Source of the DNA: a virus
Direction: 5' to 3' (one strand)
IMG/VR virus record: IMGVR_UViG_3300022690_000287
Span: 1 to 34,759 of that record
DNA length: 34,759 nt
Under the pieces are notes generated by a model. That model was not told where the DNA came from and ran no database searches. It saw only the letters and a program-made list of their open reading frames with translations. The position numbers were made by a program, and so were the translations under genes. Below are positions 17,117-26,738 of the stretch, one piece after another; positions within the stretch are counted from its first letter, which is position 1, and every line of letters starts with the position of its first letter.

Positions 17117-17479
17117 CTATCCCTTTTCTAGCCATAACCACAACTCCCCCAGAGAATCGTAGAAATCTGTATCTCTACCAGTACCAACAAACATATGTGT
17201 TTCAATATTGACACCCCATACCTTTATATATCCCACTGATTCCCCTTGTATTTCTAAGTGCAGCTCATGCTTGCCACTATTCCATTGCACGGTAACATAT
17301 CCGTCTTCATCGCTAGAAATAAACGGGGTTATCCAAACCTTATCACTCCTGATAATCATCAAAAGAACTTCAATTAATACTCCTTTTGCAAGATTAATAT
17401 CTTTTAGTTTTGGTGCTTTAGAATCTCTATCATCCCAATTATCTTTACGGCTTTCTAATGTGGCGAAGTCAGTGTTCAT
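17117..17479 (-). CDS. Conserved hypothetical protein (DGYVTVQW family)
   Basis: 120 residues from the ATG at 17479, which overlaps the stop of the upstream gene (ATGTGATGA context). The outline, NWDDRDSKAP..., then AKGVLIEVLL, then ITPFISSDEDGYVTVQW and ELHLEIQGES, resembles a small alpha/beta protein common in bacteria and phages with a W(D/N)G-x-GA-xP start and a PDG-x-I-x-LEW block. The function of that group is unknown. Confidence 0.6.
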   Translation of the reverse strand: MNTDFATLESRKDNWDDRDSKAPKLKDINLAKGVLIEVLLMIIRSDKVWITPFISSDEDGYVTVQWNSGKHELHLEIQGESVGYIKVWGVNIETHMFVGTGRDTDFYDSLGELWLWLEKG

Positions 17480-18099
17480 CACATACACTCCCTGTCCCGA
17501 CACACAAAGTTTACTTCCGACACTCCCGGACAAAACGCAGCACCAGCAGCCAGCGCGATATTCTTATCACTCAAACAACCATACCTCTGCGCCGTTTGCG
17601 TGTTGTATATATTCTCTAGAACCCGCATCACACAAGTGTAGTCATACGTAACCTTCCCGAAGGATATAGATACTATAGTGCTGCCGCCACCGATGCCTGC
17701 CACCAACGCACATGACTGATCTGGGACTACTGATTGGGCGTATGCTGTTGGTACTTGGCGTTTATGGCGGTTATTTACGGATATACTGGATGCGGGGTTG
17801 CCGCCAGTCCCACCCGTACCGCCTGTAGCAGTACCGCCGTTACCACCGACACCGCCATAACCGTTACCGCCTTGAGAAGTAGCGTTACCGCCGTTAGCGT
17901 TGCTACTACCGCCTTGCCCACCAACAGCGCTACTATCGCCACCCTGTCCACCAGCAGCACTACTGGTACCCCCACTACCACCCGTTGCCGAGTTGTTATG
18001 GCTTCGGTGGCTACCGTCGCTATTTAGACTTGCGTGTGCTAATGATACAAACATGGCTGTTTGTAAACATGTGGCTAGTAGTAGTGTTTTAAGCTTCAT
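17479..18099 (-). CDS. Secreted Gly-rich protein with C-terminal six-Cys domain
   Basis: 206 residues with AAGGGA before the ATG. Residues 1-23 form a signal peptide (Lys-rich start, LLLATCLQ core, cut after AHA). Residues ~30-105 are Gly/Ser/Asn/Thr repeats such as GGQGGDSSAVGGQGG and GGTATGGTGGTGG. The last ~85 residues have six cysteines (QSCALV, YTCVMR, YGCLSD, FCPG, VCRDREC) and a GGGSTIVSISFGK strand. I recall similar signal-plus-low-complexity-plus-Cys-domain proteins in podoviruses, without known function. Export into the periplasm or onto the surface is expected. Local base composition is GC-rich because of Gly codons. Confidence 0.75.
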   Translation of the reverse strand: MKLKTLLLATCLQTAMFVSLAHASLNSDGSHRSHNNSATGGSGGTSSAAGGQGGDSSAVGGQGGSSNANGGNATSQGGNGYGGVGGNGGTATGGTGGTGGNPASSISVNNRHKRQVPTAYAQSVVPDQSCALVAGIGGGSTIVSISFGKVTYDYTCVMRVLENIYNTQTAQRYGCLSDKNIALAAGAAFCPGVSEVNFVCRDRECM

Positions 18100-24018: not shown

Positions 24019-24047
24019 TTGACATCAGCAGTGTGGGGTGTAATACT
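24019..24047 (+). promoter_or_regulatory. Promoter ahead of the Gly-rich cassette
   Basis: A perfect TTGACA (24019-24024), 17 bases, AATACT (24042-24047) with TGT before it as an extended -10. Two overlapping TATAAT sequences just upstream (24001-24006 and 24008-24013) could serve a second start but have no good -35. Confidence 0.55.
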
Positions 24048-24074
24048 GAGGTTGTGAGTTTTGGTTGGTATTAA

Positions 24075-24123
24075 GGAGCAAAGAACCATGGGCAAAGTTA
24101 GTAACTTAGAGTTTACAGGTGGC
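24075..24123 (+). repeat. 49-bp direct repeat, copy 1 (ribosome site and N-terminus of Gly-rich gene A)
   Basis: Covers GGAGC through the codons for KVSNLEFTGG. It matches 24683-24731 with two mismatches in 49 bases. Both copies carry start codon and ribosome site, so the repeat is a whole translation-initiation unit. Confidence 0.92.
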
Positions 24124-24297
24124 GATGGCTGGGGCGGTGGCTACGGCTGGGGCGGTGGCGATGGCTGGGGCGGTGGCTGGGGCGATGGCTCTGGCTACGG
24201 CTGGGGCTATGGCGGTGGCTGGGGCGGTGGCTGGGGCGATGGCTGGGGCGATGGCTGGGGCGATGGCTGGGGCGATGGCGGTGGATCTAGTGGTTGA
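24088..24297 (+). CDS. Gly/Trp-rich repeat protein A (KVSNLEFTGG leader)
   Basis: 69 residues from the ATG at 24088, which has AGGAG upstream; an earlier in-frame ATG at 24061 lacks this. The first ten residues or so, MGKVSNLEFTGG, are shared with the protein at 24696. The rest is Gly with Trp, Asp and Tyr (GDGWGGGYGWGGG; ending in GWGD four times). No charge pattern or hydrophobic segment suggests a fold. Gly/Tyr/Trp-rich low-complexity phage proteins next to the 24323-type gene recur in other genomes as I recall, but none has a known role. A leader-plus-core layout also resembles a modified-peptide precursor, though no maturation enzyme is seen. Confidence 0.65.
   Translation: MGKVSNLEFTGGDGWGGGYGWGGGDGWGGGWGDGSGYGWGYGGGWGGGWGDGWGDGWGDGWGDGGGSSG
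24229..24276 (+). repeat. 12-bp tandem repeat coding for GWGD
   Basis: GGCTGGGGCGAT occurs four times without mismatch. Each unit is four codons, so copy-number change would keep the frame. Local GC content is far above that of the surrounding genes. Confidence 0.95.
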
Positions 24298-24322
24298 TGA
24301 TTAATAATAAGGAGAATTAAAG

Positions 24323-24709
24323 ATGAATATTGACGATATGACAATTGGTGCAGCTAGAAAGCTTAGTAATATGTTTAATACAAACCAGACGAATAAAGCT
24401 AGTATCTATACTAGATATATAGGGGAGTACGTTATTTGCCGTACTCGGAATGAAGGGGTTAACGCTGGTAAAGTTGTTAATCTTGATGACACGGGAGTTG
24501 TATTAGAAGATGCACGCCGTTTGTATTATCATCGGCCAATTAAGGAGAATGTATCTTGGTATGAGGGTGTAGCTAAATATGGCGTTTCAGATGATTCAAA
24601 GCTGGGAGTAGAGGCAGAGAAGTTAATTGTCGAAGATTATTCTTTAACTTTGTGTACTAAGGAGGCAGAAGAATCTATTCGTGGAGCGAAGAACCATGAG
24701 CAAAGTTAG
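24323..24709 (+). CDS. Conserved phage protein (IVRT...GV..G...DARRL type, DUF6948-like)
   Basis: 128 residues, AAGGAG before ATG. The core reads GEYVICRTRNEGVNAGKVVN, then GVVLEDARRLYYHRP, SWYEGVAKYGVSDDSKLG and a VEDYSLTLCTKEAEESIRGAK ending. It follows a phage family with the order V-RTYSAGV-GxL, V-L-DARRLW-W, ISLxxxAxxG, and an IEIxPCTxxAxxSI end. I believe this is DUF6948, stated from memory. Function unknown, but in my recollection it often sits beside Gly-rich repeat genes, as here, where they flank it on both sides. Its end overlaps gene B by 14 bases. Confidence 0.65.
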   Translation: MNIDDMTIGAARKLSNMFNTNQTNKASIYTRYIGEYVICRTRNEGVNAGKVVNLDDTGVVLEDARRLYYHRPIKENVSWYEGVAKYGVSDDSKLGVEAEKLIVEDYSLTLCTKEAEESIRGAKNHEQS

Positions 24710-24731
24710 TAACTTAGAGTTTACAGGTGGC
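24683..24731 (+). repeat. 49-bp direct repeat, copy 2 (start of Gly-rich gene B)
   Basis: Second copy of the initiation unit at 24075-24123, 608 bases away. The ends of both Gly-rich genes also share TGATTAATA-A/C-TAAGGAG, so the duplication included the downstream ribosome site. Confidence 0.92.
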
Positions 24732-24890
24732 TCTGGCTGGGGCTATGGCTACGGCTATTGCTATGGCGGTGGCTCTGGCGAAGGCGGTGGCTGTGGCTGG
24801 GTCTATGGCTCTGGCTACGGCTGTGGCTCTGGCGGTGGCTCTGGCGAAGGCGGTGGCTATGGCTATGGCTGGGGCGATGGCGCTGGATGA
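24696..24890 (+). CDS. Gly/Tyr/Ser-rich repeat protein B (KVSNLEFTGG leader)
   Basis: 64 residues from ATG 24696. It starts MSKVSNLEFTGG like protein A, then GSGWGYGYGYCYGGGSGEGG and a second CGWVYGSGYGCGSGGGSGEG block, so it has a ~30-residue internal repeat. Protein B has Tyr, Ser, Glu and three Cys where A has Trp and Asp: same leader, diverged core. Start lies inside the previous gene. Confidence 0.65.
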   Translation: MSKVSNLEFTGGSGWGYGYGYCYGGGSGEGGGCGWVYGSGYGCGSGGGSGEGGGYGYGWGDGAG

Positions 24891-24911
24891 TTAATACTAA
24901 GGAGGGGTGTT

Positions 24912-25153: not shown

Positions 25154-25480
25154 ATGAGTAAGACATTAGCAGAGCGTGCTGCTGTAGTGGCGGAGTTGGA
25201 TGGAAAGAGGACGCAGGGTGCAATTTGGGAGGTAGACAGGATAGATTGCAGAGATGGTTATCTGATAGTTACAGATGATTGGCCAGGTGAAAATTCTAAA
25301 CAAATAATTACAGGTCATAAAGGTTGGGGAGGGTTTATTCAAAATGAAAATGGGAAAGCTGATGCGTCGTTCATTGCCCACGCTCCCCAGATGGCGCAAC
25401 TCATAGCAGACTACGTAAAAGAGGTAGAAACGTTAAACAATGTAATAAGTCATTTGCAAGAGAGGCAACCATGTTCATAA
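25154..25480 (+). CDS. Ead/Ea22-like phage accessory protein, copy 1
   Basis: 108 residues with GGGGGAGA upstream. MSKTLAERAA at the start and FIAHAPQMAQLIAD near residues 75-88 are shared with the protein at 26073. The RT-x-G-x-W...DAxFIAxAPxMAxLI layout is common in phage accessory proteins of the Ead/Ea22 kind, whose role is unknown. It overlaps the amidase gene by ten bases. Confidence 0.65.
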   Translation: MSKTLAERAAVVAELDGKRTQGAIWEVDRIDCRDGYLIVTDDWPGENSKQIITGHKGWGGFIQNENGKADASFIAHAPQMAQLIADYVKEVETLNNVISHLQERQPCS

Positions 25481-26076
25481 TATCGGATGAGGAAGAGTAC
25501 AAAGAGTACAGGCATTTAATACAACCAGGGGATGTCATAGCCTTCGGTGGTAGGGGGTTTTATTCATGGTTTATAAAGTGGAAGACAAAGAGCAAGGTGT
25601 CTCATGTTGGTATTGTTATGCAGACATCTCTATTCAGTGGCGGCGTTAAAAGCATGGATATTGATAGTATATTACATGTAGGGGAGTCAACAACGCTCTA
25701 CAAAGGTAAACCAGGCGTATCAATTAATACGCTATCTGAACGGGCTAGAATGTACAAAGGTGAGGTGTGGTGGTTACCTTTAAATGACCATGCTAGGGAA
25801 AAGTTTAACTCGTTAGCAGCGTCAAGGTTCTTACGAGGTGAAGAGCATAAGCCTTATGACATGGAACAGGCTATTAAGTCAGCAATAGATTACTTCGAGG
25901 ATGTGCCTATATATGGCAATCTCGTGAAGAATAAAGAGGATGATGGCGCTTGGTTCTGCTCAGAGCTGGTTACTAAGGCGTTAAAGGTGGGCGGTATTGT
26001 TGATATGGGGATATGCTCTGCAGAGCAGACCCCGCAGGACGTGGTGGAGTTTGGGATATATAAGGAGGAGTTATGA
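25471..26076 (+). CDS. YiiX/C92-like (permuted NlpC/P60) cysteine peptidase or amidase
   Basis: 201 residues. The permuted papain-like arrangement is visible: QPGDVIAFGG, SHVGIVM with His45, GESTT, a GVSINTLSERARMYKGEVWW strand set, KPYDMEQAI and WFCSELVTKAL with Cys163. In this group the His precedes the Cys. Known relatives cleave peptide, amide or lipid-acyl bonds at the envelope. No signal peptide, so it would act inside the cell unless released at lysis. Sits among accessory genes, not with the endolysin. Confidence 0.75.
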   Translation: MFIISDEEEYKEYRHLIQPGDVIAFGGRGFYSWFIKWKTKSKVSHVGIVMQTSLFSGGVKSMDIDSILHVGESTTLYKGKPGVSINTLSERARMYKGEVWWLPLNDHAREKFNSLAASRFLRGEEHKPYDMEQAIKSAIDYFEDVPIYGNLVKNKEDDGAWFCSELVTKALKVGGIVDMGICSAEQTPQDVVEFGIYKEEL

Positions 26077-26738
26077 GTAAGACATTAGCAGAGCGCGCCG
26101 CCGAGGTGGAGAAGTTGGATAGGGGTAGGACCCGTGGTAATTGGAACTCTCGTAGGGATCGGTACGGTAATGTAGAAATGGTCTCAGATGATTATCACAA
26201 ACTTTTCGGAGTTCCCCCGTTAGTTACCGACTGCTACACCACCGAAGGAGTGAAAGAGGCCGAAGATAATATAAGCTTCATCGCTCACGCCCCCCAAATG
26301 GCGCAACTCATTGCTGCCATGGCAGAGGAAATTAAAAAAGCGCAACAAAATATAGAATTCTACCGAAAACTTCTCGATTCGGAGTTAAAAAGCAAAGACC
26401 TTGACATTAAGATTCTAAAGCAGGACTTAAAAGAAGCATACAAGACAATTAAGGGTGTGAATAGTCAGAGAGTTTACATCCCAATGCTTGAAGAGAAGGT
26501 GAAAGAGCGAGATTTACGCATAAAAAAGTTGGAGATAAGTAACTACCACCTTCAAAATGAAAATGATGCAATATACTTAGTTCGCCGAGAAAGAGAAAAA
26601 CCTGGCTTTCCTTTGCCATGTTGGGGTACGGCACAGAGAACAGTAGATCACTCATGTAGTGTTCAATACAACGGAAAAGAAATTGCAAGTATCGATGGTA
26701 GTGTGATGGATTATAAAACTGATGAGGGGGAGTCATGA
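26073..26738 (+). CDS. Ead/Ea22-like phage accessory protein with coiled coil, copy 2
   Basis: 221 residues, ATGA overlap, TAAGGAGGAG upstream. The N-terminal ~90 residues parallel the protein at 25154 (MSKTLAERAA, RTRGNWNS, FIAHAPQMAQLIA). A coiled coil follows, ~90-170 (LLDSELKSKDLDIKILKQD, LEEKVKERDLRIKKLE), then a separate C-terminal piece (CWGTAQRTVDHSCSVQYNGK). The amidase gene sits exactly between the two copies. Confidence 0.65.
   Translation: MSKTLAERAAEVEKLDRGRTRGNWNSRRDRYGNVEMVSDDYHKLFGVPPLVTDCYTTEGVKEAEDNISFIAHAPQMAQLIAAMAEEIKKAQQNIEFYRKLLDSELKSKDLDIKILKQDLKEAYKTIKGVNSQRVYIPMLEEKVKERDLRIKKLEISNYHLQNENDAIYLVRREREKPGFPLPCWGTAQRTVDHSCSVQYNGKEIASIDGSVMDYKTDEGES

Follow-up and report, generated by a model that had tools for sequence, protein, structure and literature searches.

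Eukaryotic Sm and Lsm4 proteins carry Gly-rich low-complexity tails, and low-complexity domains of the FUS/hnRNPA1 type, like silk-like proteins, combine Gly with Ser, Tyr/Phe and Asp/Asn. In phages, a recent report describes VIPR, in which RNAs with alternating GGY and hypervariable dinucleotides are bound by a RAMP-fold protein, Vipr, the repeats (YNNGG, period 5) being non-coding guides in an expressed RNA with a structured tail (PMC13142463, preprint 2026). The locus described here joins a member of the Pfam family DUF6948 (PF22253), whose entry gives no function, to genes for proteins in which every second residue is Gly. No mention of DUF6948 was found in the literature searched, nor was anything on the DUF6948-array pair found in the literature on Gly-rich phage repeats. 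Two Barba phage papers make no mention of gp017/gp018 (Barba9A numbering), and the array is not discussed in the passages retrieved from the Ymer-genus paper. An earlier note on this DNA had stated that no such system is known to have been described, and the literature searched agrees with it.

The window, meaning the whole stretch of 34,759 nt that was analysed, is a virus record of 34.8 kb encoding a tailed-phage terminase, lysozyme, SSB, ERF recombinase and a Gp157-like protein. Gene A (24088..24297, + strand) encodes a 69-aa Gly-X repeat protein in which X is mostly Trp, Asp, Gly or Tyr, and it resembles the Gly-X ORFs adjoining DUF6948 in relatives. The DUF6948 gene (24323..24709, +, 128 aa) separates it from gene B (24696..24890, +), whose 64-aa Gly-X product has mostly Tyr, Ser, Gly, Cys, Glu or Trp at X. 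The gene B start codon lies inside the end of DUF6948, and this 14-nt overlap is the commonest across the family. The features reported from the sequence alone are all present. Genes A and B both start with ...KVSNLEFTGG and continue with alternating Gly and differing cores. Their start regions form a 49-bp direct repeat with two mismatches, of which copy 1 (24075..24123, +) holds the RBS, start and leader of gene A and is the counterpart of the last DUF6948 codons plus the gene B start, while copy 2 (24683..24731, +) overlaps the DUF6948 3' end. Their shared ends follow the form TGATTAATA[A/C]TAAGGAG, which occurs 3' of gene A as TGATTAATAATAAGGAG (24298..24314, +), carrying the likely DUF6948 RBS, and again after gene B as TGATTAATACTAAGGAG (24888..24904, +), comprising the gene B stop and the start signal of the next gene.

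On the simplest reading of this arrangement, the DUF6948-array cassette was duplicated in tandem and its first DUF6948 then deleted, and gene A looks like a remnant of that event; at another locus (L152), an upstream array is preceded by a DUF6948 remnant. Because the window cassette would be a tandem duplicate, the leader shared by A and B would itself be a recent duplicate. The constant leader proposed earlier does hold between A, B and a few close relatives, but pre-array residues across the family are short and unrelated. The promoter placed before the set is likewise present as a motif with a perfect -35 (TTGACA - 17 nt - AATACT, 24019..24047, +, 10/12 consensus matches), but a consensus scan gave 2 such sites against 2.4 +/- 1.6 in shuffles, which does not exceed chance.

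Elsewhere in the same phage, an ORF at 17479-18099 (- strand) has a signal-like N-terminus (MKLKTLLLATCLQTAMFVSLAHA) and a Gly/Ser-rich stretch with no Pfam match, a different kind of Gly-rich protein. Downstream of the cassette, ORFs at 25154-25480 and 26073-26738 have the start MSKTLAERAA and the motif SFIAHAPQMAQLIA in common and form a small paralogous pair, and the ORF at 25471-26076 is weakly similar to permuted papain-like YiiX/YaeF (NCBIfam E 0.003-0.005, far below cut-off).

The DUF6948/Gly-X pairing proved much wider than the earlier note assumed. A first search of viral contigs with DUF6948 returned five relatives, all with Gly-X sequence next to DUF6948, which in one of them is cut by the contig end. 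An alignment search then gave 80 viral loci, partly overlapping the first five, and 8 loci in genome contigs, all metagenome-assembled; named phages with DUF6948 were located by tblastn. After duplicate removal, the testable set of metagenomic and named phages comprised 86 DUF6948 loci. In 80 of these a long alternating-Gly ORF lies directly 3' of DUF6948 on the same strand, abutting or overlapping its stop, which bears out the earlier note's statement that the middle protein belongs to a family found beside Gly-rich genes. Four further loci have only a few units (L022, L072, L092) or carry the array upstream (L096), and in L083 and L094, which are identical in sequence, a truncated DUF6948 is followed by a Cys-rich array. 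The remaining ~360 kb of the same loci contain 7 Gly-X ORFs, several of which are extra cassette copies, so the adjacency is far beyond chance. Relatives keeping the middle gene without any Gly-rich neighbour, which would have spoken against a unit, were looked for and not found among the DUF6948 loci, and the near-constant pairing supports the proposal of a conserved functional unit.

The reverse search gave a similar picture. Among 91 arrays found by DNA pattern alone, DUF6948 lies upstream in 53 with the first profile and in 66 with the iterated one, the former being the conservative figure since the iterated profile was trained on some of the tested loci. The 25 arrays left without DUF6948 include four that adjoin a diverged relative; most of the others either sit within long ORFs or are monotone microsatellites of the (GS)n/(GA)n type, and one (L149) may be a genuine lone array. 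In L083:2998-3500 and L094:2991-3490, the DUF6948 N-terminal motif and a stop precede a gene with a Cys-rich tandem array (NCYGCYGCSDCFDCYGCYDC...) of three-residue period, with Tyr, Ser, Asp, Phe and Gly between the cysteines.

Named phages with the pair are Iodobacter phage PLPE, the Pectobacterium Ymer genus, Rhodobacter RcapNL and Chlorobiaceae phage CV-1-33, and the pair also occurs in 115 Rheinheimera Barba records; megablast of the region itself against named phages gave no match. Public annotation of the array genes is unreliable: CV-1-33 gene25 (L228:2828-3073) has been deposited with its array in a wrong frame (MAMALALA...), the PLPE record has no annotation for the array that follows gp84, and another array (L227:2231-2545) is named 'lamprin'. 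DUF6948 appears to be virus-specific and phage-borne, judging from the searches made. No relative was found in plasmids, and a cellular origin was set aside, the family being absent from 298 other genomes (one phylum sample) and 14 control genomes. In a raw ranking with one neighbour per locus, which is not an enrichment, RecT, ERF, YqaJ and Sak were among the commonest neighbour families, and neighbours were most often single-strand annealing proteins and recombination nucleases.

The window protein matches PF22253 over residues 35-119 (E 2.5e-13, 50.4 bits, cut-off 27). PHROGs and PADLOC gave no usable family for any of the three proteins (A, DUF6948 and B), and NCBIfam gave none. Substitution patterns indicate that DUF6948 is under purifying selection, with pN/pS of about 0.03-0.14 in Pectobacterium phages and mostly synonymous differences. 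A confident AlphaFold2 model built with 57 homologues (pLDDT 91.8) predicts a helix at residues 8-19 and strands at 36-41, 46-54, 59-69, 98-102 and 106-110. All of the best 50 PDB matches in Foldseek are Sm/LSm chains or chains of Sm-fold-containing complexes (probability 0.82-1.00, best E 0.007), with a target TM of up to 0.77 to an archaeal Sm protein. In a viral library, DUF6948 proteins match best, and a Rheinheimera Barba protein ranks fourth. We describe DUF6948 as a predicted Sm/LSm-like beta barrel with an N-terminal helix. The likeness is a fold match only, of a kind that SH3-like barrels produce easily, and the 57-sequence profile matched no PDB sequence at E <= 1. With a median net charge of -1 the DUF6948 proteins are not basic, so nucleic-acid binding by them is a guess.

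In 78 of 83 loci the start of the repeat gene lies no more than 40 nt from the DUF6948 stop; an overlap of 8-17 nt is usual, with peaks at 14, 11, 8 and 17 nt. In one locus (L115), DUF6948 and a long array are fused in a single open frame, and the array tail is predicted to be disordered (pLDDT about 40). The repeat gene almost always lies at a distance of 1 mod 3 from DUF6948, even in non-overlapping loci. This constant relative phase is most simply read as an inherited overlap, with programmed frameshifting into a fusion as another explanation compatible with it. A search for an experimental or proteomic record of either gene product found none.

Three hexamer words, Gly-Ser, Gly-Tyr and Gly-Asp, are the building blocks of most arrays, with Ser (32%), Tyr (30%) and Asp (24%) together making up 86% of X residues. 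Glycine is written in dialects, GGC in most arrays, GGG in 11, GGT in 3 and GGA in 2, and serine is TCY in most arrays and AGC in seven. The amino-acid set is the same in nearly all codon dialects, whichever Gly or Ser codon is used, and this constancy of composition indicates that selection acts on the protein. Alanine, one base from both the Ser and the Asp words, is rare, at 1.8% against 8.8% expected with independent variation of the two bases. As it would in an ordinary gene, the third base of the X codon tracks genome GC (rho 0.54, p 1e-6). The arrays most likely encode protein. Stop codons or a lack of selection in the Gly-rich frames, named earlier as grounds for rejecting the idea, were also looked for; the frames are open and constrained at the amino-acid level.

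Our preferred reading, held tentatively, is that the two genes form a module of tailed phages consisting of an Sm-like adaptor and a disordered, order-free sticker-and-spacer scaffold. DUF6948 would be the small folded protein, and the repeat gene product a polymer, intrinsically disordered, whose units are Gly-Ser, Gly-Tyr and Gly-Asp. Joint synthesis is suggested by the overlapping start and the one natural fusion, and joint action is most likely. The polymer would serve as a multivalent scaffold in which aromatic residues are stickers and Gly, Ser and Asp flexible soluble spacers, with DUF6948 as the adaptor tying it to nucleic acid or to another protein. We infer that the two products interact physically, that they assemble or condense, and that they act at an early stage, in replication or recombination. 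Two marks of a scaffold, disorder and a composition that is kept while order is not, are found in the arrays and in the prediction for the L115 tail, and the phase-separating protein suggested by the earlier note is possible and is the alternative of its list that we favour. A low-complexity phage protein could also be inert filler. If only composition and rough length matter, as proposed, array order would drift by block duplication, deletion and recombination between arrays.

The arrays do turn over rapidly, as the fast-changing Gly-rich part proposed earlier would imply. Among metagenome assemblies, L043 and L048 share 99.2% of DUF6948, but the array has 32 units in the former and 49, differently ordered, in the latter; L051 and L053, with 96.6% in common, differ in Gly dialect. 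Cultured phages carry more weight: Abuela and Amona, of the Pectobacterium Ymer genus, show no difference in the 399 nt of DUF6948, the 1300 nt upstream or the 700 nt downstream, whereas their array genes, compared for length as the earlier note had proposed for related phages, measure 219 and 201 nt and have only their ends in common. In the 115 Rheinheimera Barba records the length of the stretch changes in steps of 6 nt (1070, 1076, 1100 and 1112 nt), and two conspecific isolates compared with Barba9A differ from it only inside the array. In 23 of 56 arrays the repeated blocks exceed the length that shuffles allow, so whole blocks are being duplicated and deleted. Of 80 contigs, 16 end less than 400 nt downstream of DUF6948 and none within the same distance upstream, as if assemblies were broken by the arrays, through their repetitiveness or their variation in the population. 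DUF6948 can change as well: within the Ymer genus (L233-L239), Koroua differs from Abuela at 23 nt within DUF6948 between essentially identical 1300-nt and 700-nt flanks, and Taid from Pappous at 37 nt with flanks identical except for a short indel near the Taid array. From these comparisons, DUF6948 and the array appear to be exchanged as one cassette.

Such hypervariability between otherwise identical phages, together with whole-cassette swaps between identical flanks (Koroua/Abuela, Taid/Pappous), would also be expected of a phage conflict factor directed against the host or a competitor, for example one that inhibits a host defence or nuclease or serves as its decoy, with array order under diversifying selection. 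Anti-RecBCD functions are often located near phage recombination genes, and the cassette lies near such genes. We nevertheless regard this as unlikely, if worth keeping in view: PADLOC gives no match, DUF6948 differences are mostly synonymous, and a constant composition with random-looking order and block duplication is what would be expected without selection on order.

The codon dialects bear on a second alternative, that the array acts as repeated DNA, promoting exchange between phages as a hot spot of recombination or as a microsatellite that propagates itself, and that its open frame is tolerated and not used. Third bases are frozen within arrays: 1485 hexamers contain 18 synonymous changes away from the dialect. 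Genome GC is not reflected in the Gly third base, and GGC is kept even in AT-rich genomes. In the window, Gly is nearly all GGC in both arrays (the codon listing for gene A gives the same for its alternating Gly codons), compared with 12% of Gly in ten other genes of the phage. Exchange of the cassette around the array and recombinase neighbours fit the same idea. We consider it improbable, because the Ser/Tyr/Asp set persists across different Gly and Ser codons, the start codon position is conserved, one array is fused in frame to DUF6948, the DUF6948 partner is near-obligatory, and dialects that differ between phages would hinder annealing. The codon pattern is in our reading better described as selection on composition combined with rapid homogenisation of the array. 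The frozen GGC is not predicted by plain protein selection and counts against the scaffold-and-adaptor explanation that we favour.

A VIPR-like guide, in which array RNA would spell a target through two variable bases per GG-anchored repeat and DUF6948 would bind that RNA, seems very improbable. Per-position entropy of the hexamer is 0, 0, 0.23, 1.02, 1.07 and 0.25 bits, and this concentration of variation in bases 4 and 5, taken alone, could point to coding at the DNA level. The arrays are, moreover, phage-encoded and hypervariable between near-identical phages, their partner has a predicted fold of small RNA-binding type, and VIPR vrRNAs also alternate GGY with hypervariable NN (PMC13142463). 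Against this, the period is 6 and not 5, the partner is Sm-like rather than RAMP/RRM, and amino acids, not dinucleotides, are kept across lineages. Most arrays use 3 of 16 dinucleotides, with which ordinary genes cannot be spelled; start codons overlap and one array is fused to DUF6948; and a single test, with 12 units and a 1-nt skip, gave no target among viral contigs. We give as little credence to a six-base noncontiguous nucleic-acid repeat code, analogous but unrelated to VIPR, that would be read by the Sm-like protein and possibly also translated.

Least probable of all are the earlier note's suggestions of a surface coat or of a peptide precursor destined for modification or export, for which two window genes with a common short N-terminus and different downstream sequence speak: the family has no common leader, pre-array residues differing between clades, no RiPP modification or export gene stands among the 25 commonest neighbour families listed (one neighbour per locus), sequence so repetitive and so free of order does not resemble a RiPP core, and the repeat proteins lack a signal sequence.

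The DUF6948-array unit recurs in phages of gamma- and alphaproteobacteria and green sulfur bacteria and in gut and aquatic communities. Being near-obligatory and recurrent across such different hosts, the pair must benefit the phages that carry it. If the scaffold reading is true, the pair would offer a viral counterpart of eukaryotic RNP granules, in which Sm-like proteins occur with Gly-rich low-complexity chains, and one small enough for study in the test tube. The arrays also constitute a natural experiment in near-complete turnover of a protein sequence at fixed composition. Rheinheimera isolates and the Pectobacterium Ymer genus make the pair testable in cultured phages.

No system described in the literature searched accommodates the pair, though its eventual mechanism may be of a known kind. 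The VIPR parallel is striking but fits poorly. In both, a small phage-encoded protein adjoins short tandem repeats that are anchored by GG and hypervariable at two bases, but the arrays here have period 6 (GGN-NN-Y) in an open frame under amino-acid constraint, and DUF6948 matches Sm folds with no RAMP among the listed PDB matches; in period, partner fold, alphabet and amino-acid constraint the pair thus departs from the defining features of VIPR. FUS/hnRNPA1 low-complexity domains and silk-like Gly-X proteins resemble the arrays in joining Gly with Ser, Tyr/Phe and Asp/Asn, whereas the phage arrays, known from sequence alone, show strict Gly alternation and rapid turnover of order. With Sm, LSm and Hfq proteins, DUF6948 shares a predicted helix and five-strand bent barrel, and with Sm proteins it also shares a Gly-rich disordered chain, to which it is paired or, in L115, fused. 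It differs from Sm/LSm proteins in having no detectable sequence similarity to them and an extra helix between strands 3 and 4, and its Gly-rich part lacks RGG motifs and is as a rule a protein of its own; DUF6948 is likened to them by predicted fold, RNA-binding hexa- or heptameric rings being known from the Sm/LSm side. The window protein is a member of Pfam DUF6948, and the near-obligatory Gly-X partner and the predicted Sm-like fold are additions to what is known of that family.
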